The translations under genes and the position numbers were made by a program. A DNA stretch of 64,000 bases. Origin: Flavobacterium swingsii (lineage in GTDB: Bacteria; Bacteroidota; Bacteroidia; Flavobacteriales; Flavobacteriaceae). Below, in pieces: positions 14,625 through 31,241 of the stretch. Position 1 is the stretch's first letter, and every line of letters starts with the position of its first letter. Location of the stretch: contig NZ_FOJT01000002.1 in the NCBI RefSeq assembly GCF_900111965.1, forward strand, positions 248,001 through 312,000, given 5' to 3'. The notes under the pieces are model-generated. The model saw nothing but the letters and a program-made list of their open reading frames with translations, was not told the DNA's origin and did not search any database.

Positions 14625-15809
14625 TTATCTCCTAAACCTATTCCTAACAATAATATCTTTCAATTTAGCTTTCAGGTCTTCGCCAGAATCATAAACCATT
14701 TGGTCGTTACTAGGAAAAGCAACGGCACGTTTATTAAAATAAGGCATATAACTGTCATCGCAAGCATTTTTGTCACCGTTATAAGTCGAATAAATATTTT
14801 CGAAAACAAATTCACTACTTATAGGAAAAGCTTCAATAAGTTGGTTGGTTCTAAAATCGATATAATCAACTTTTGCAGTTACTTGGCAAGATTTAAACTG
14901 TCTGAATTCATAAATATCAACACGAATAGTTTTAAAATTATCAACCATAATAGTATGACCCAAACTGTCTTTTACCACATTTCCTTGCGAATTCAATAAT
15001 GCTTTTACACCATCTTTTATCTGTTTTTCCTTAATAAATTCCTTCTCCTTTATTTGCTCTGGCGAAATATTTATTTGACGGAAATTTACAATCAATCCGT
15101 AATCGTAACTGATTCCTTTTTGTTTGTTGCTATGATAAACCGTCCATTTGTCGTTTAGTCCAAAAGTGCTAAAATCTAACAAATCGCTTTGCAAACGAAC
15201 AGGAATAACCATATTGGTTTCGTTTTTGGTATAAACACTCACAAAATCAGTACCTTTTTGTTGTGCCTGATTCATTAATTTTGTTACATCTTTATAACCA
15301 GGATTTATGCTTTCTAAATAACCCAAATCGTCATAAGATTTTCTAAAATCCATTTTGTTATTAGATTTCAAAAGTTTCACAGCATTATCGTATAAGTATT
15401 TCGATAAGGCATTTTTGCTGTTTATAATTTGGTCCGAATAATTATCGAAAGGAAAATAAGCATTTCTTCCTTCTTTCAATAATTGCAATGGTAGCAACGG
15501 ACGAATGCGCTCCTGACGGTTATTCAACTGCAAATAATCGTTATATATTTTCTCTAAATTTGCAGGATTAGCATCTTTAGCAAGCATGTCTATATTGCGC
15601 AAATCACGATCTTTAGCTTTGGCAAAAGCCTCCTCGAGCAAGTACACATAATCTTGTTTTCCTTTCGCATCTTTTTTAGTTCGCAAGGCTTCCACAGCAC
15701 GATTTATGGCGTTATCATAATCACCATCACTCAGTAAAGACTGCGTTTTTTTAACACCACAAGAATAAATTAAAAGTAATATCGATAAGAGTAAAGTAAT
15801 TTTTCGCAT
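14625..15809 (-). CDS. Predicted lipoprotein with N-terminal TPR-like region
   Basis: The 394-residue product has a lipoprotein signal (MRKITLLLSILLLIYSC) with lipidation at Cys17. Helical TPR-like pairs follow (about 25-190; for example YDNAINRAVEAL and YVYLLEEAFAKAKDRD). The C-terminal half looks beta-rich (SKRL-poor, with YEFRQFKSCQVTAKVDYIDF). No catalytic motif is visible. Its likely place is the periplasmic face of the outer membrane. I cannot assign a function; homologues are commonly labelled as hypothetical lipoproteins in Flavobacterium. It is divergent from pyrD, with a structured repeat in the shared 191-bp gap. Confidence 0.75.
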   Translation of the reverse strand: MRKITLLLSILLLIYSCGVKKTQSLLSDGDYDNAINRAVEALRTKKDAKGKQDYVYLLEEAFAKAKDRDLRNIDMLAKDANPANLEKIYNDYLQLNNRQERIRPLLPLQLLKEGRNAYFPFDNYSDQIINSKNALSKYLYDNAVKLLKSNNKMDFRKSYDDLGYLESINPGYKDVTKLMNQAQQKGTDFVSVYTKNETNMVIPVRLQSDLLDFSTFGLNDKWTVYHSNKQKGISYDYGLIVNFRQINISPEQIKEKEFIKEKQIKDGVKALLNSQGNVVKDSLGHTIMVDNFKTIRVDIYEFRQFKSCQVTAKVDYIDFRTNQLIEAFPISSEFVFENIYSTYNGDKNACDDSYMPYFNKRAVAFPSNDQMVYDSGEDLKAKLKDIIVRNRFRR

Positions 15810-15839: not shown

Positions 15840-15924
15840 AGGAGCTATTTCCTGCTATCCGTTTCAATCTTTTTTTCGGTAAAAACCTCAAAAAAGGATT
15901 TCCACTACTATCAGGGCTAGGGCA
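15840..15924 (+). repeat. Dispersed structured element, copy A
   Basis: This 85-bp sequence opens AGGAGCTATTTCCTGCTATCC and closes TATCAGGGCTAGGGCA. In between, ATCTTTTT and AAAAAAGGAT can pair around a variable hairpin tip. The same layout recurs at 17959-18044 in the same orientation and at 29811-29890 inverted. The start can fold as AGGA with TCCT. It fills much of the gap between the lipoprotein gene and pyrD. I recognise the layout as a recurring intergenic sequence of Flavobacterium; whether it equals a named RNA family such as Flavo-1 is unverified. Confidence 0.75.
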
Positions 15925-16000: not shown

Positions 16001-17062
16001 ATGTACAAACTCATTATTCGCCCTATACTTTTCTGGTTTGATCCCGAAAAAGTGCATTATTTTACCTTCTCATTAATAAGAACAGTATCTAAAATTCCAG
16101 GATTTACATCAATATTCAAATCCTTGTACGAAGTAAACGACAAACGATTAGAAAGAGAAGTTTTCGGACTAAAATTCAAAAATCCAGTAGGACTCGCAGC
16201 TGGTTTCGACAAAGATGCCAAGCTTTATAAAGAATTATCCAATTTTGGTTTCGGTTTTATCGAAATAGGAACACTAACTCCAAAAGGACAAGAAGGAAAT
16301 CCTAAAAAACGATTGTTTCGTTTGCAAGAAGATTCAGCAATCATCAACCGAATGGGTTTCAATAACGGCGGCGTTCTCGAAGCAGTCGAAAGACTAAAGA
16401 AAAACAGCGGAGTACTAATAGGAGGGAACATTGGTAAAAACAAACTCACGCCAAACGAAAATGCCACTTCCGATTACGAAATATGTTTCGATGCTTTATA
16501 TGATTATGTCGATTATTTTGTAGTAAATGTAAGTTCGCCTAACACACCAAATCTTCGTGAACTACAGGAAAAAGAGCCATTAACACAATTGTTAAACACG
16601 CTTCAAACAAAAAACATTCAAAGATATAACACTGAGCTTGTCACCCTGAGCGAAGTCGAAGGGCGAAGTGCAAAACCTATTCTACTAAAAATCGCTCCGG
16701 ATTTAACAAACGAACAATTATTAGATATTATCGATATTGTAAAAACCACAAAAATTGCAGGAGTAATTGCAACCAATACCACCATTTCTCGTGAAGGTTT
16801 ACAATCGGTTAATAAAATAGAAATGGGTGGATTATCAGGAAAACCACTCACCAATCGCTCTACCGAAGTGATTCGTTTCCTTTCCGAAAAAAGCAACAAA
16901 GCCTTCCCAATAATAGGAGTAGGAGGAATACATTCTGTGCAAGATGCCATCGAAAAACTAGAAGCAGGAGCAAGCCTAATTCAACTTTATACAGGTTTTA
17001 TTTACGAAGGACCAGCATTAGTAAAAGCAATTAATAAAGCAGTTCTTAAAAAAAGTTTGTAA
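16001..17062 (+). CDS. pyrD: Dihydroorotate dehydrogenase (quinone), class 2
   Basis: PyrD oxidises dihydroorotate to orotate and passes electrons to the membrane quinone pool. The 353-residue protein has an N-terminal hydrophobic membrane-docking helix (about 1-35). FMN-binding segments are [11 protein letters not shown] and [20 protein letters not shown], and the catalytic-loop Ser is in [15 protein letters not shown]. The FMN phosphate site is [11 protein letters not shown]. Residues about 210-223 are encoded by a GC-rich REP-like insert in a loop before [10 protein letters not shown], kept in frame. The gene lies 22 bp before mvaB, and the two are probably co-transcribed. All catalytic motifs remain, so the enzyme is expected to be active. 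Confidence 0.93.
16630..16670 (+). repeat. REP-like GC-rich insert inside pyrD
   Basis: These 41 bases run from CACTGAGC to GCGAAGTG around the core CCCTGAGCGAAGTCGAAGGG. They are about 59% GC in strongly AT-rich surroundings and have dyad symmetry at both ends (CACT/AGTG and CCCT/AGGG). The core is a widely dispersed palindromic word that I recognise from many flavobacterial intergenic regions. Here it is translated in frame as SEVEG-containing loop sequence. Confidence 0.75.
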
Positions 17063-17084: not shown

Positions 17085-17951
17085 ATGAGCCAACCAATAA
17101 AAATTATCGAATGTCCTCGTGATGCCATGCAAGGTATCAAGGCGTTTATACCTACCGAGAAAAAAGTTGCCTATATTCAATCGCTTTTGCGAGTAGGTTT
17201 TGATACTATCGATTTTGGGAGTTTCGTTTCGGCAAAAGCCATTCCACAAATGCAAGACACGGTAGAAGTTTTAGCACAACTTGATTTGTCACAAACCCAA
17301 AGTAAATTATTGGCTATTATTGCCAACACACAAGGTGCTGAAAACGCTTCTATTCACAAAGAAATTCAATATTTAGGATTTCCGTTTTCTATTTCGGAGA
17401 ATTTCCAAATGCGAAATACCCACAAAACTATTGCAGAATCTCTGGTTACCTTACAAGAAATTTTAAACATTGCCGACAGAACAAATAAAGAAGTCGTAAC
17501 CTATATTTCTATGGGATTTGGTAACCCTTATGGAGATCCTTGGAATGTTGAAATTGTAGGAGAATGGACAGAGAAACTCGCCAATATGGGCGTAAAAATT
17601 CTTTCCCTTTCGGATACTGTAGGTTCATCAACACCAGAAGTGATTCGTTATTTATTCTCCAATTTAATACCAAAATACCCAAATATCGAGTTCGGTGCTC
17701 ATCTGCATACCACACCAGACAAGTGGCATGAGAAAATAGACGCCGCTTACAAAGCAGGTTGTCGTCGTTATGATGGAGCGATTCAGGGATTTGGTGGTTG
17801 TCCTATGGCAAAAGACGATTTGACAGGAAATATGCCTACGGAGAAAATGTTATCTTATTTTACCACACAAAAAGAAAATACAAATACCAGTCCAATGAGT
17901 TTCGAAAGTGCCTATAACGAAGCATCAAAAATATTCAATTTATATCATTAG
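17085..17951 (+). CDS. mvaB: Hydroxymethylglutaryl-CoA lyase
   Basis: The enzyme cleaves HMG-CoA to acetoacetate and acetyl-CoA, the last step of leucine breakdown. The 288-residue TIM-barrel protein shows the HMGL-like N-terminal motif IIECPRDAMQGIKAFIP. Metal-site histidines are in FGAHLHTTPDKW. The catalytic-Cys loop IQGFGGCPMAKDDLTGNMPTEK is close to the family signature. Length is normal. It follows pyrD by 22 bp although the pathways are unrelated, and a dispersed element (copy B) begins 8 bp after the stop. Confidence 0.93.
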   Translation: MSQPIKIIECPRDAMQGIKAFIPTEKKVAYIQSLLRVGFDTIDFGSFVSAKAIPQMQDTVEVLAQLDLSQTQSKLLAIIANTQGAENASIHKEIQYLGFPFSISENFQMRNTHKTIAESLVTLQEILNIADRTNKEVVTYISMGFGNPYGDPWNVEIVGEWTEKLANMGVKILSLSDTVGSSTPEVIRYLFSNLIPKYPNIEFGAHLHTTPDKWHEKIDAAYKAGCRRYDGAIQGFGGCPMAKDDLTGNMPTEKMLSYFTTQKENTNTSPMSFESAYNEASKIFNLYH

Positions 17952-17958
17952 CATTTTT

Positions 17959-18044
17959 AGGAGCTATTCCAGCTATCCACTATATCTTTTTGTATCGCCG
18001 AAAAGGCTCTCAAAAAGGATATCGTTCCTATCTGGGCTAGGGCA
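17959..18044 (+). repeat. Dispersed structured element, copy B
   Basis: This 86-bp copy has AGGAGCTATTCCAGCTATCC at its start and TATCTGGGCTAGGGCA at its end. The internal stem ATATCTTTTTG with CAAAAAGGATAT is nearly perfect, with a GCCGAAAAGGC hairpin at the tip. It has the same orientation as copy A, so the two are direct repeats flanking pyrD-mvaB. Confidence 0.75.
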
Positions 18045-18139: not shown

Positions 18140-19612
18140 ATGAAAGCACACAATTCTAAAATCATCGGAGAAGGACTAACTTACGATGACGTATTACTTA
18201 TCCCAAGTTATTCAGAGATATTGCCACGCGAAGTAAGTATCAAAACACATTTTTCAAGAAATATTACTCTAAACACACCAGTTGTTTCCGCAGCGATGGA
18301 CACTGTTACCGAAAGTGCTATGGCAATAGCAATGGCACAAGAAGGCGGAATAGGAGTTTTGCATAAAAACATGACTATCGAGCAACAAGCAGCCGAAGTA
18401 CGCAAAGTAAAACGTGCCGAATCAGGTATGATAATCGATCCAGTTACTTTACCATTATCAGCAACCGTAGCAGATGCCAAACAAGTAATGCGCGAATACG
18501 GTATTGGTGGAATTCCAATTGTAGATGAAAATCAAACACTAAAAGGAATCGTAACCAATCGTGATTTACGTTTCGAAAAAAATAATAATAGACTGATAAC
18601 CGAAGTAATGACTTCGCAAAATTTGGTTACAGCAGCTGTAGGAACTTCATTGCAAGAAGCAGAAATTATTTTACAAGGACACAAAATCGAAAAATTATTG
18701 GTAGTAGATCCAAACAATAAATTAGTAGGTTTAATCACTTTTAGAGATATTACAAAACTGACTCAAAAACCAAACGCTAACAAAGACAAGTTTGGTCGTT
18801 TGCGTGTTGCCGCAGCACTTGGTGTTACTGCCGATGCGGTTGAAAGAGCTGAAGCACTTGTAAAAGCAGGTGTCGATGCAGTAATTATTGACACAGCCCA
18901 CGGACATACAAAAGGAGTAGTAGATGTTTTGAAACAAGTAAAAGCAAAATTCCCTGATTTAGATGTAGTAGTAGGAAATATTGCTACGCCAGAAGCCGCC
19001 TTATATTTAGCACAAAATGGTGCTGATGCTGTCAAAGTAGGTATCGGACCAGGTTCTATATGTACCACAAGAGTCGTTGCAGGAGTAGGATTTCCTCAAT
19101 TTTCTGCAGTATTAGAAGTCGCAGCAGCACTAAAAGGATCTGGAGTTCCAGTAATTGCCGATGGTGGAATTCGTTATACAGGTGATATTCCTAAGGCTAT
19201 TGCAGCTGGAGCAGATTGTGTGATGTTGGGTTCACTTTTAGCAGGAACTAAAGAATCTCCAGGAGAAACCATCATTTTTGAAGGAAGAAAATTCAAATCT
19301 TATCGAGGAATGGGCTCTGTTGAAGCCATGCAAGAAGGATCGAAAGACCGTTATTTTCAAGATGTAGAAGACGATATCAAAAAATTAGTTCCCGAAGGAA
19401 TTGTAGGTCGTGTACCATACAAAGGAGAATTGAATGAAAGTATGCAACAATTTGTTGGTGGACTTCGTGCAGGAATGGGTTATTGTGGTTCTAAAGACAT
19501 TGCAACGTTGCAAGAAACTGGACGTTTTGTGAGAATTACAACTAGCGGAATAGGAGAGAGTCACCCACATAATGTGACTATCACTAAGGAAGCACCTAAT
19601 TATTCGAGGTAA
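18140..19612 (+). CDS. guaB: IMP dehydrogenase
   Basis: GuaB oxidises IMP to XMP with NAD, the committed step of guanine nucleotide synthesis. I use the ATG at 18140; a TTG two codons upstream is less likely. The 490-residue protein has the family N-terminus [20 protein letters not shown] and two CBS domains (about 95-210, including the segment [12 protein letters not shown]). The catalytic loop is [15 protein letters not shown] with the active-site Cys. The IMP phosphate site is [19 protein letters not shown] and the flap is [15 protein letters not shown]. Length is normal. It lies 18 bp before rdgB, so the two probably form an operon for purine synthesis and purine pool cleaning. Confidence 0.96.
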
Positions 19613-22420: not shown

Positions 22421-22873
22421 TTATGCGTCTGGAATTTCGGGCTCGACCAACTTAGTCAATTTTTCTAAAGATTCTTGCCAACCTAAATAACACATTTCTA
22501 CAGGTATAACAGATGGGATTCCTTCCTGCAAAATTTTTAATTCGGTACCTCCAATAACTTTACGCAACCAAACGGACGTAATCATTTCACCGGGAAGATT
22601 TGGGTCATCAAATTGATCTGTATACTTTAAAAATTCATTAGGTTTAATTTCGATATATTTCCCACCAAATGAGTGACCATTGCCAGTTGAGAAATTATGA
22701 AATGACATTTTATAAGTCCCCCCCATCTTTACAGTTATTTCATGTACAGTACAAAGAAAACCATATGGAGGTATCCAAGAAGCAAGCGCATTAGCCTCAG
22801 TAAATGCACGGTAAATTTTTTCAGGAGAAGATTTAAGAACTCTGTGTAACGATACGCTGCTATTATTTGACAT
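22421..22873 (-). CDS. SRPBCC (AHSA1/START-like) domain protein
   Basis: The 150-residue protein is a single helix-grip domain of the AHSA1/SRPBCC superfamily, which binds hydrophobic ligands. Signature parts are LHRVLKSSPEKIYRAFTEANALASWIPP at the start, GGTYKMSFHNFS in the middle and GWQESLEKLTKLVEP at the end. The start at 22873 (MSNNSS) is preferred over the ATG three codons upstream. No ligand can be inferred. The gene is isolated between a terminator and a gap with less typical composition, and in many bacteria such genes are carried as optional single-gene inserts. Confidence 0.82.
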   Translation of the reverse strand: MSNNSSVSLHRVLKSSPEKIYRAFTEANALASWIPPYGFLCTVHEITVKMGGTYKMSFHNFSTGNGHSFGGKYIEIKPNEFLKYTDQFDDPNLPGEMITSVWLRKVIGGTELKILQEGIPSVIPVEMCYLGWQESLEKLTKLVEPEIPDA

Positions 22874-23093
22874 AAAATACATTGGTGTAAATCCCTACTC
22901 GTCTGGCTTTTGGGTTCCGCCCGTTTTTTTTAATGGTCGCTGCTCCATAACGTATAAAGTTAATAAATTTCGATTAAACATTCAAATATCATTTCTGATT
23001 TAATTAACAATTATAGTTAATTTTCTTATAATTATAATATAAATTGAAAATATCTCAACATGAATAATTACATTAGCCCAACAAATTTTTAGC
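22874..23093. other. 220-bp intergenic region with a GC-richer patch
   Basis: The stretch 22889-22945 (TCTGGCTTTTGGGTTCCGCC and GGTCGCTGCTCCATAACG) is richer in GC than the surrounding AT-rich spacer and does not look like promoter or terminator sequence. No ORF or RNA gene is recognisable. The rest is AT-rich. Confidence 0.4.
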
Positions 23094-29069: not shown

Positions 29070-29717
29070 ATGACCAAATATGATTTTGAATTTAACGATA
29101 CTAAATTTGCTTTTCGTTTATTTATGATTTGTTTAATTACATTTATTGCACTTCTATTTATAACTCTTCAATTGAATTTAAATTTCCTTATTTTAATAAC
29201 AATTTCTCTAGGAATTCCTATTCTCATATTTTGGCTTAACCGAAAAAAAATCCCTAAAAAAGGATTTGCAACAATTAGTGATTGTGAAATTGAGTTTAAC
29301 CTAAATGGAGCAGAGGAAAAAATTAACTTAAATGAAATTAAAAATTATCAAATTCATATTTATAATGGCACAACTTTAAATATAAAACTTAAAAGCGGAA
29401 AAAAAATTGGAATAGTTTCAAATTCAAATTTTTGTAATCCGATGAAATTTGATGTTTTTTGTCAAGAACTTGAAAACAAAATTGAAAAGTATAAAACTGA
29501 AAATAATATTGAATTAATTAGGAAGAAATCTTTTTTTGAACAAGTTTGGTTATTTCCTTTTTTAGTCATTATAACTTCAATACTAATTATATCAGTTTTA
29601 ATTGCAGTATTTAAGGGAATGGAATTAAAACCATCAATTTTTATATCTTTAGCGCCATTATCAACACTTTGGGGCGGATATTTAAGTACGAAAAATAGAA
29701 TGAAAAATAAAATTTGA
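29070..29717 (+). CDS. Hypothetical membrane protein with two pairs of transmembrane helices
   Basis: I do not recognise the family. The 215-residue product has two hydrophobic helices near the start (about 12-35 and 37-55). A cytoplasmic-looking middle follows (about 60-155), with beta-type sequence EKINLNEIKNYQIHIYNGTTLNIKLKSGKKIG. Two more helices lie at the end (about 165-210). The middle resembles PH-like or bPH domains of bacterial membrane proteins, but this is only a guess. It is very rich in Asn, Ile and Lys, more AT-rich than purB, and enclosed by 10-bp inverted repeats, so it looks like an accessory gene. Confidence 0.65.
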   Translation: MTKYDFEFNDTKFAFRLFMICLITFIALLFITLQLNLNFLILITISLGIPILIFWLNRKKIPKKGFATISDCEIEFNLNGAEEKINLNEIKNYQIHIYNGTTLNIKLKSGKKIGIVSNSNFCNPMKFDVFCQELENKIEKYKTENNIELIRKKSFFEQVWLFPFLVIITSILIISVLIAVFKGMELKPSIFISLAPLSTLWGGYLSTKNRMKNKI

Positions 29718-29745: not shown

Positions 29746-29810
29746 AGAGGTTTCATGAAATTGGGATAAGGCTAATTTAAAAGTAATGTTTATTATGAAA
29801 ACGGTATTTT

Positions 29811-29890
29811 TAGCCCTGATGGAAACGGCATCCTTTTGCTTTTTTCTTTAGAAAGCAAAAGATAGAGTGAACAGCAGGAAATTGCTCCTA
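29811..29890 (-). repeat. Dispersed structured element, copy C (inverted)
   Basis: Read on the minus strand this 80-bp copy opens AGGAGCAATTTCCTGCTG and closes CCATCAGGGCTA. The internal stem is the longest of the three copies (ATCTTTTGCTTTCT with AAAAAAGCAAAAGGAT). It lacks the final GGGCA found in copies A and B. It lies in the longest gene-free stretch of the window (29718-29981), which otherwise holds only the inverted-repeat arm. Confidence 0.72.
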
Positions 29891-29981: not shown

Positions 29982-31241
29982 ATGGTAAAAGATTTATTCG
30001 AAAGAATTCAAAACAATAAAGGACCATTAGGAAAATGGGCTTCGCAGGCGGAAGGATATTTTGTGTTTCCAAAATTGGAAGGCGAATTGGGTCCGAGAAT
30101 GCAATTTAAAGGAAAAAATATATTAAACTGGAGTTTGAATGACTATTTGGGTCTTGCAAATCATCCAGAAGTTCGAAAAGCAGATACTGATGCGGCGATA
30201 CAATATGGTGCGGCTTATCCTATGGGTGCTCGTATGATGTCTGGTCACACTAAGTATCACGAGCAATTAGAAGAAGAATTGGCTGCTTTTGTAATGAAAG
30301 AATCGGCTTATTTATTGAATTTTGGTTACCAAGGAATGGTGTCAACTATTGATGCTTTAGTAACTAAAAATGATGTTATTGTATACGATGTCGATGCACA
30401 CGCTTGTATTATAGATGGTGTTCGTTTGCACATGGGAAAACGTTTTACATACCGTCATAACGACGTGGAGAGTATGGAGAAAAACCTGCAACGTGCTACA
30501 AAATTAGCTACTGAAACTGGTGGTGGAATTTTGTTTATCACTGAAGGTGTTTTTGGAATGCGTGGGCAACAAGGTAAGTTGAAAGAAATTGTAGAAATGA
30601 AAAAAAGATACAATTTCCGTTTGCTAGTAGATGATGCGCATGGTTTTGGAACACTAGGAAAAACTGGTGCTGGAGCAGGTGAGGAGCAAGGAGTTCAGGA
30701 TGAAATTGATGTTTATTTTTCGACTTTTGCAAAATCGATGGCAAATATTGGAGCTTTTATAGCTGCCGATAAAGATATTATCGATTACTTAAAATATAAT
30801 TTACGTTCTCAAATGTTTGCTAAAGCGTTGCCAATGATTCAAACAATTGGTTCACTAAAACGTTTAGAATTATTGCGTGAATCGTCTGAAATAAAAGACA
30901 AACTTTGGGTAAATGTAAATGCGTTACAAAGCGGATTGAGAGAAAAAGGATTTAATATTGGTGATACAAACACTTGTATTACACCAGTTTATTTGGAAGG
31001 TTCTATCCCAGAAGCGATGATTATGGTAAATGATTTGAGAGAAAACTATGGTATTTTCCTTTCGATTGTGGTTTATCCTGTAATTCCTAAAGGTATGATT
31101 TTGTTAAGAATGATTCCTACAGCGTCGCACACGATTGCCGATATTGATGAAACTCTTACTGCTTTTGAAGCCATTCGTGAGAAATTAGTAAACGGAACGT
31201 ATAAAGAAATTGCAGACAGAACTACGGTTGATGTTTCTTAA
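29982..31241 (+). CDS. Alpha-oxoamine synthase family PLP enzyme (serine palmitoyltransferase or cysteate acyltransferase candidate)
   Basis: The 419-residue fold-type I PLP enzyme condenses an amino acid with an acyl thioester with loss of CO2. Family motifs: NWSLNDYLGLANHPEV, GARMMSGHTKYHEQLEEELA, the PLP-Asp/His region VDDAHGFGTLGKTGAG, and the Schiff-base Lys251 in STFAKSMANIGAF. Relatives include 8-amino-7-oxononanoate synthase, glycine C-acetyltransferase and serine palmitoyltransferase. No bio or threonine genes are nearby, and a GNAT protein resembling bacterial ceramide synthase lies 0.9 kb away. The lipid role, making a long-chain base for sphingolipids or, with cysteate, capnine for sulfonolipids, is therefore the best guess. 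The substrate cannot be read from sequence. Confidence 0.82.
   Translation: MVKDLFERIQNNKGPLGKWASQAEGYFVFPKLEGELGPRMQFKGKNILNWSLNDYLGLANHPEVRKADTDAAIQYGAAYPMGARMMSGHTKYHEQLEEELAAFVMKESAYLLNFGYQGMVSTIDALVTKNDVIVYDVDAHACIIDGVRLHMGKRFTYRHNDVESMEKNLQRATKLATETGGGILFITEGVFGMRGQQGKLKEIVEMKKRYNFRLLVDDAHGFGTLGKTGAGAGEEQGVQDEIDVYFSTFAKSMANIGAFIAADKDIIDYLKYNLRSQMFAKALPMIQTIGSLKRLELLRESSEIKDKLWVNVNALQSGLREKGFNIGDTNTCITPVYLEGSIPEAMIMVNDLRENYGIFLSIVVYPVIPKGMILLRMIPTASHTIADIDETLTAFEAIREKLVNGTYKEIADRTTVDVS

Follow-up and report, generated by a model that had tools for sequence, protein, structure and literature searches.

Flavo-1 of Flavobacterium is probably a recombining, REP-like dispersed DNA repeat

Flavo-1, a family of structured intergenic elements of about 80 bp of which three copies lie in a 64,000 nucleotide stretch of the Flavobacterium swingsii genome (here called the window), is probably a recombining, REP-like, dispersed non-autonomous DNA repeat rather than a family of RNA genes. 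Comparison of its copies within and between genomes shows a replaceable tip and small palindromes nested inside the element. The family was catalogued in 2010 as a possible small RNA and has remained so since; it stands in Rfam (RF01705) as an sRNA family without a known role. In the accessible part of Weinberg et al. 2010 it is a row of a table, listed as probably an RNA, probably not cis-regulatory, of Bacteroidetes (PMC2864571), and in the available text of a review (PMC9029176) it appears in the section that deals with the most abundant sRNAs. In Flavobacterium psychrophilum some Flavo-1 matches coincided with 5' transcribed regions, and the accessible portion of that study draws no clear role from this (PMC9723704). 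The open-licence literature that we found on Flavo-1 or RF01705 gives no function for it in its available parts.

In a cmscan search against Rfam 15 all three window copies match Flavo-1 with E 1.8e-11 or better (gathering score of the family, 42 bits; Table 1); this is the same family as RF01705 as published, each copy scores above that threshold, and their identity is certain. The initial annotation had described three elements at these places with the common ends AGGAGC[T/A]ATT(T)CC ... ATC[A/T]GGGCTA and with tips that differ in sequence yet still pair, all of which is real in all three copies; it gave the complementary strand, its plus-strand copies being minus-strand Flavo-1 and vice versa. 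Of the two identities it proposed, Rfam Flavo-1 was correct, and the wider evidence set out below favours the other, a non-autonomous repeat, as well. Copy 2 is antisense to both of its neighbours, the HMGL-like gene and the IMP dehydrogenase gene, and copy 3 is sense to its neighbours, the minority case. Elsewhere in the window, the Rfam DUF805 RNA (RF03081) matches at 22888-22953 on the minus strand (57.7 bits, cut-off 51.1), directly 5' of an AHSA1-domain gene (22424-22882, minus strand) and not of a DUF805 gene.

Table 1. Flavo-1 copies of the window with their neighbouring genes, and loci of two other palindromes in related genomes
Feature	Position	Strand	Description
Flavo-1 copy 1	15844-15922	-	cmscan 77.2 bits, E 2.7e-15
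Copy 1, inner stem and variable tip	15866-15900	-	AATCCTTTTTTGAGGTTTTTACCGAAAAAAAGATT on the Rfam strand; from sequence and Rfam alignment
Copy 1, neighbouring gene	14625-15809	-	divergent; without Pfam match
Copy 1, neighbouring gene	16001-17062	+	pyrD
Flavo-1 copy 2	17962-18042	-	cmscan 63.3 bits
Copy 2, neighbouring gene	17085-17951		HMGL-like; stop 10 nt before the copy
Copy 2, neighbouring gene	~18140-19612		IMP dehydrogenase (guaB)
Flavo-1 copy 3	29808-29885	+	cmscan 75.7 bits
Copy 3, neighbouring gene	29070-29717	+	without Pfam match
Copy 3, neighbouring gene	29982-31241	+	aminotransferase
Free-standing E	L138-L167 (e.g. L144 1501, L160 1501)
Hairpin GTTTAATCGG...CCGATTAAAC	L235, L236, L238, L239, L246-L249, L254, L261, L265		ddl-side site

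Rather than the few further copies that would have spoken against the initial annotation, the F. swingsii genome (2.57 Mb, 10 contigs) yields 113 Flavo-1 matches at E 1e-3, 100 of them above the cut-off. Across a sample of the genus the element is found in 113 of 121 genomes (112 above the cut-off), where at most 35 candidates per genome were scored and the number of copies within a genome is a lower bound; across a sample of the order, scored for at most 29 candidates per genome, it is found in 40 of 148 genomes (37 above the cut-off), which belong to 13 of the 62 genera sampled. It is missing from all 14 control genomes, and phage and plasmid collections, each searched with one copy, gave no match. 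We read 108 of the 113 copies with their flanks, and the closest pairs among these are 96% identical, apart from one identical pair at contig ends, a scarcity of recent duplicates that counts against the repeat reading. That pair is a 91-nt Flavo-1-like copy with identical flanks at G000:C6:317119-317209 and G000:C8:449485-449575, near two contig ends, which therefore probably overlap or finish in a duplicated region. The roughly 100 diverged copies per genome count against the main rival reading, which we regard as unlikely, that Flavo-1 is a structured RNA family with many gene copies, whose Rfam-strand transcripts would act in trans as sRNAs or else as antisense RNAs; its Rfam type, sRNA gene, is that of such a family.

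Judged from its sequences, Flavo-1 is modular, with one stem-loop backbone, unrelated self-paired tips and interchangeable ends. The commonest form reads, on the Rfam strand, YYYTAGCCCNGATNGNARYG(G/A)AAATCC, then a tip, then GATTGNARYGNANAGCNGGAAATAGCTCCTAAA, where the tip forms a hairpin that pairs perfectly or almost so and is unrelated in sequence between copies (e.g. TTTTGCTTTTTTCTTTAGAAAGCAAAA, ACCTGACAGGTTTTTAAAACCTGTCAGGT or GTCAGTTCGAGT...GTATCGAGAAC). Heads are of type A (TAGCCC) or C (GCGTKAGGGAT), or are an A or C head interrupted by one of two inserts, D and E; tails are of type A (GGAAATAGCTCC), B (with a second small hairpin before GCTCC) or C (AGCCCGACCC...). Under simple pattern rules the 108 copies divide into the head-tail combinations A-A (61), A-B (20), C-C (16), D-A (4), D-B (2) and others (5). 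Eight tips are each shared by at least two copies of the genome, three of them on more than one backbone. One tip of about 50 nt, CCCGATTTAGAAAAACAAGG..., followed through eight genomes, is carried in 22 copies by heads A, C and D and by tails A, B and C. Donors of this tip exist within genomes, as it occupies 3 to 9 places each in 7 of the 8 genomes searched and none in the eighth, G049. A separate palindrome, CCCGATAGCTATCGGG, or a near variant of it, sits within other Flavo-1 copies of this genome and also of G102 and G044.

Two intergenic sites were followed through related genomes. Of 20 fetched relatives, 6 retain the HMGL-like - guaB pair that encloses window copy 2, as identified by inspecting the sequence that precedes guaB; the copy is absent from all 6, in which the gap is too diverged to give a clean empty site. 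The second site lies between a gene that from its sequence we take to be ddl and a PASTA-domain gene, and was followed in 60 genomes chosen, not at random, from 265 scored of 299; intergenes, whose ddl-side end is approximate, were parsed from 59 of them (G078 was not parsed) and from the query genome, and 45 of the 60 intergenes hold a Flavo-1 element. In several pairs the flanks, taken as 60 nt upstream and downstream to the PASTA gene, are much more alike than the element between them: 97% against 68% with 24 gap positions (G049 and G230), 97% against 72% (G225 and G049) and 95% against 72% (G109 and G230), while in G042 and G083 the flanks are 93% identical, the outer parts of the element near-identical and the tips unrelated. 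Replacement is not the rule, since elements track their flanks in G049 and G109 (flanks 95%, elements 92%) and in G265 and G238 (98% for both). At this site tip CCCGATTTAGAAAAACAAGG... is combined with either of two outer types, X (GAGCC...GGC) and Y (GAAGC...GC), each of which is also found with a different tip, and the resulting four combinations would not readily be reached by point mutation of a resident element; the least that would explain the four states is three replacements, the compared pairs sharing genomes.

No clean empty Flavo-1 site appears at the ddl-side locus, where 15 of the 60 intergenes are without a parsed element. Eleven of these hold, in the same place, variants of another hairpin, GTTTAATCGG...CCGATTAAAC (Table 1), and the remaining four have sequence that cannot be cleanly aligned. 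Either this site attracts hairpins or a hairpin is useful there, and local usefulness could account for the element being retained in 45 of the intergenes.

The inserts D (ACTTCACT...GGAGTTCAGTGAACTTCGTT, about 46 nt) and E (GCTTCGCCWGTTCG...CTCGGGT, 26-45 nt) stand inside Flavo-1 right after GATT, at 7 of 7 and 4 of 4 places respectively in a part of the genome chosen around Flavo-1; E has six places in the whole genome. The elements of G201 and G265 agree to 99%, save for 46 nt of D that G201 carries behind GATT, with no duplication, and G223 has the same insert after GAGT. E is free-standing in other genomes, its pattern being found in 13 of 40 and that of a reversed control in none, and at 30 distinct places in several genomes (Table 1) the letters before it are TT in 28 cases, ATT or ATTT in 27 and GATT in 6, with no visible target duplication at those 30 places. 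With its fixed ends and a self-paired middle that varies between copies, E resembles a small mobile palindrome that has not been named. At L281 (G089:C4), a RAYT-type hairpin downstream of a Y1 gene is interrupted after ATT by the E-like ACTTCGTCAGTTCGCTATCGCTCGTGT. In the window itself, GTCACCCTGAGCGAAGTCGAAGGG, a palindromic repeat widespread in bacteria, lies at 16640-16663 inside pyrD, in frame and with the frame open; it adds 13 residues that are lacking in all 12 fetched relatives covering the site. The dihydroorotate dehydrogenase that pyrD encodes reaches 86% identity with its counterparts in named Flavobacterium species. The RPE of Rickettsia are palindrome-in-gene repeats that form protein-coding insertions. 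The small palindromes seen here resemble them in inserting without breaking the host sequence, even in frame as in pyrD; Flavo-1 itself, unlike them, is intergenic.

The covariation noticed in three tips by the initial annotation persists in a larger alignment. This alignment, A2, holds 43 own-genome copies of 76-84 nt with standard ends (65 of the 108 were left out, by length, by their ends or, at three loci, by orientation), and in a 16-pair structure 94.8% of its cells are standard pairs and 12 of the 16 pairs have changed on both sides, the double changes at pairs 24-60 and 25-59 stemming from a subfamily whose register in the alignment is off by one base. Covariation scores 0.563, compared with 0.186 for shuffled alignments (0 of 500 reach 0.563) and at most 0.151 for slid controls. 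Covariation of this strength speaks for an RNA family. It arises, however, at least partly through exchange of whole self-paired tips between copies, and because tip exchange feeds it, covariation alone is no proof of selection for a base-paired product. The kinds of mismatch in the stems do speak for a folded single strand, namely the complement of the strand that the initial annotation gave.

On the Rfam strand, the cells of the tip stem that are not Watson-Crick pairs number 31 G.T, 0 A.C and 13 others, counted over 110 distinct tips in 154 distinct copies by a pattern search that misses copies with other heads; since distinct tips are partly related, the 31-to-0 figure is not a probability. 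Counted over all copies the numbers are 46, 0 and 14, and without the three loop-adjacent pairs 23, 0 and 9. The whole of A2 has 22 G.T and 16 A.C, of which 15 A.C fall in column pair 26-58, the place of a one-base shift in a subfamily whose C there is bulged; outside that pair the count is 22 to 1. A G.T pair is an A.C on the opposite strand, so that a double-stranded cruciform or a strand-blind repair should yield equal numbers, and by this excess the Rfam strand appears to be the strand whose folding matters. That strand appears, from these counts, to fold either as RNA or as single-stranded DNA, with strand-biased deamination of exposed DNA as a further possible cause of the excess. Predicted RNA folding energies are lower for the Rfam strand than for its complement in 42 of 43 copies (means -21.4 and -17.3 kcal/mol), a difference that largely restates the G.T/A.C asymmetry. 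Both the asymmetry and the energies are also what the RNA reading would predict, tolerance of G.T and covariation being equally expected of RNA.

The same asymmetry bears on whether pairing is kept by hairpin-templated (quasipalindrome) repair and not by selection, such that any palindrome comes to look covarying. Tips are often near-perfect palindromes, and there is one example in which an arm seems to have been copied from the other: in G227 the 3' arm holds the D insert, and the 5' arm has been rewritten over about 20 nt into a perfect complement of it (GTGAATTAATCTTTTGTGCC / GGCACAAAAGATTAATTCAC), while the D-bearing orthologues in G201 and G223 retain the usual 5' arm. Such repair is strand-blind, as is a double-stranded cruciform, but the tip-stem mismatches are not; it may contribute, and as the explanation of the pairing it is very improbable.

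Gene context was taken from open reading frames of at least 80 aa, without a gene caller, and 105 of the 108 copies have two neighbours by this measure (three are without a second). Only one of the 108 lies inside an open reading frame. The 105 copies stand between tandem (71), divergent (23) and convergent (11) genes, roughly in line with the share of gap length of each kind (63, 24 and 13%), and Flavo-1 is not bound to one gene and is without a fixed gene context. Its orientation is biased: of the 71 tandem copies, 57 have their Rfam strand antisense to the adjacent genes (binomial P 2.7e-7); 9 of the 11 convergent copies have it antisense to the nearer gene, and the divergent figure is 13 of 23. 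In other species (48 copies, mostly the best-scoring) the bias has the same direction and is weaker, with 24 of 38 tandem (P 0.14), 5 of 5 convergent and 3 of 5 divergent copies antisense. With gene neighbourhood as a proxy for replichore, replication strand was not supported as the cause of this bias, as non-tandem copies oppose the neighbourhood majority in 19 of 33 cases; copies between tandem pairs that run against that majority are still antisense in 17 of 22. An antisense RNA could show such an orientation, which is a point for the RNA reading.

Among the tandem copies, 53 of 71 are nearer to the upstream stop codon, at a median distance of 32 nt after it. Some REPs have been claimed to protect mRNA 3' ends or to separate the genes of an operon in part, and a domesticated post-transcriptional element of this kind would account for the position after stop codons, for an orientation that follows the adjacent genes and not the neighbourhood, and for the antisense placement of convergent copies. 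We nevertheless consider such a role improbable as the explanation of the family, given that the mRNA would carry the complement, which has the weaker fold, that no U-tract follows the hairpin, that the three kinds of context occur roughly as gap length would have them, and that the bias is weaker in other species.

TAnnTTTG is the -7 consensus of Bacteroidetes promoters, and of 106 copies searched for this single motif, 1 has it in the 20 nt or so that precede the Rfam 5' end. Within 100 nt it occurs upstream 15 times on the Rfam strand and 21 times on the other, and downstream 31 and 21 times, compared with 10 expected at the genome rate. The 15 upstream occurrences exceed expectation, as transcription of the Rfam strand would have it. 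The motif is no commoner upstream on that strand, however, which describes motif-rich flanks and gives no pointer to a start at the element, and no start site is evident there. Also at odds with an RNA family, the accessible text on F. psychrophilum has Flavo-1 'indistinctly' sense or antisense of transcribed regions, with many copies outside any (PMC9723704).

In the preferred reading, Flavo-1 would be a recombining DNA repeat that works in the manner of a REP or BIME family. REPs are short, intergenic, high-copy palindromes of mosaic make-up, forming a wobble-paired single-strand hairpin and often lying 3' of genes. Flavo-1 is likewise a high-copy intergenic palindrome, and resembles REP, BIME and REPIN elements in being mosaic, in its wobble-paired single-strand hairpin and in often lying 3' of genes; unlike them it is larger (about 80 bp), and its conserved ends, YYYTAGCCC and GCTCCTAA, which are its presumed termini, are without a REP-type GTAG or CGTC tetranucleotide. 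A MITE of a DDE transposon was rejected, as TAGCCC and AGCTCCTAA are not inverted repeats and no target-site duplication was found in 80 copies (3-9 nt at 64 end offsets; best 6 observed, 2.9 expected).

A search for a mobiliser gave no Y1_Tnp match in the own genome at E 1e-3, and Y1 transposase matches in 86 of 121 genomes of the genus. Among 30 strong Y1 loci, Flavo-1 matches within 1.5 kb are present at 2, and 7 of 20 weaker loci have a Flavo-1-like string, at no constant place and with no regular flanking; at one of them, L285, the string belongs to the Y1 gene's own hairpin. A Y1 transposase as neighbour or partner of Flavo-1 is ruled out for the 50 loci examined. Flavo-1 differs from the REP/RAYT arrangement, in that it does not regularly flank a RAYT gene and in that its variable tip is swapped as a cassette. 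The RAYT-like genes of the genus carry hairpins other than Flavo-1: in 16 loci read, Y1 genes mostly have their own, CCCGATAGCGCGGATTTGCAATCCGTGCCC or CCACGCGAAGGGATTCGCGCGG, and those beside the weak Y1 genes are CCCGATAGCGCGGATTTGCAATCC... or CCACGCGAAGGGATTCGCGCGG...; CCCCGATAG, which the weak-Y1 hairpins have in common with Flavo-1, is a lead only. As a signature common to Flavo-1 and RAYT hairpins, CCCGATAG proved weak; it occurs 23 times (17 at Flavo-1 ends, 4 in the CCCGATAGCTATCGGG palindrome, 2 elsewhere) where 5.3 are expected, in a part of the genome that was chosen around Flavo-1, and its fourth C varies in Flavo-1. In the available part of one survey, TnpA-REP subclass 2.6 of Bacteroidetes has on its flanks 'atypical secondary structures' that also recur at other places of the same genome (PMC6006769); at about 185 aa the weak Y1 genes of the present analysis come close to it in size, a likeness by length and description. 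No mobiliser was found in these searches, which counts against the preferred reading, and Flavo-1 cannot be filed as the REP of a RAYT system, and its kinship with REPs is one of resemblance.

How copies might be replaced in place can be outlined. An enzyme acting in trans, perhaps of the HUH/Y1 kind, would recognise Flavo-1 as a single-stranded DNA hairpin, on the lagging strand or in DNA laid open by transcription. Single strands copied from other elements would then overwrite resident copies by way of short homologous arms of about 25-30 nt, an overwriting that would swap tips while the stem stays paired. The enzyme, the single-stranded route and any benefit to the host are inferred. A stronger form of this account, which we hold tentatively, makes Flavo-1 a self-renewing mosaic palindrome. 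Its hairpin would serve as a docking platform, tips and ends would move as cassettes among some 100 resident sites by way of single-stranded DNA recognised on one strand, smaller palindromes would land and nest at the GATT box in its arms, and pairing would survive throughout.

Compared with the account of Flavo-1 in the accessible part of PMC2864571, what is added here is the module exchange, the in-place replacement, the nested inserts and the strand test. In the open-licence literature, as far as its texts were available, we found no description of module exchange or nested insertion in Flavo-1; searches of open-licence full text for a REP/RAYT transposase in Flavobacterium and, separately, for palindromic intergenic repeats in it returned nothing, and open-licence literature held nothing related on nested palindromes with gene conversion. 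Thousands of REP-like palindromes have been counted in two Flavobacterium genomes, according to the accessible part of that report (PMC12306157).

If Flavo-1 is a recombining DNA repeat, counts of sRNA abundance that include it should be reconsidered, as should other RNA predictions with covariation as their sole basis. One would then also expect a protein that binds a single strand of the hairpin, and this protein would offer a route to the enzyme. Should the mosaic-palindrome account also be true, the textbook covariation of an Rfam RNA family would have come mainly from the exchange of DNA cassettes.
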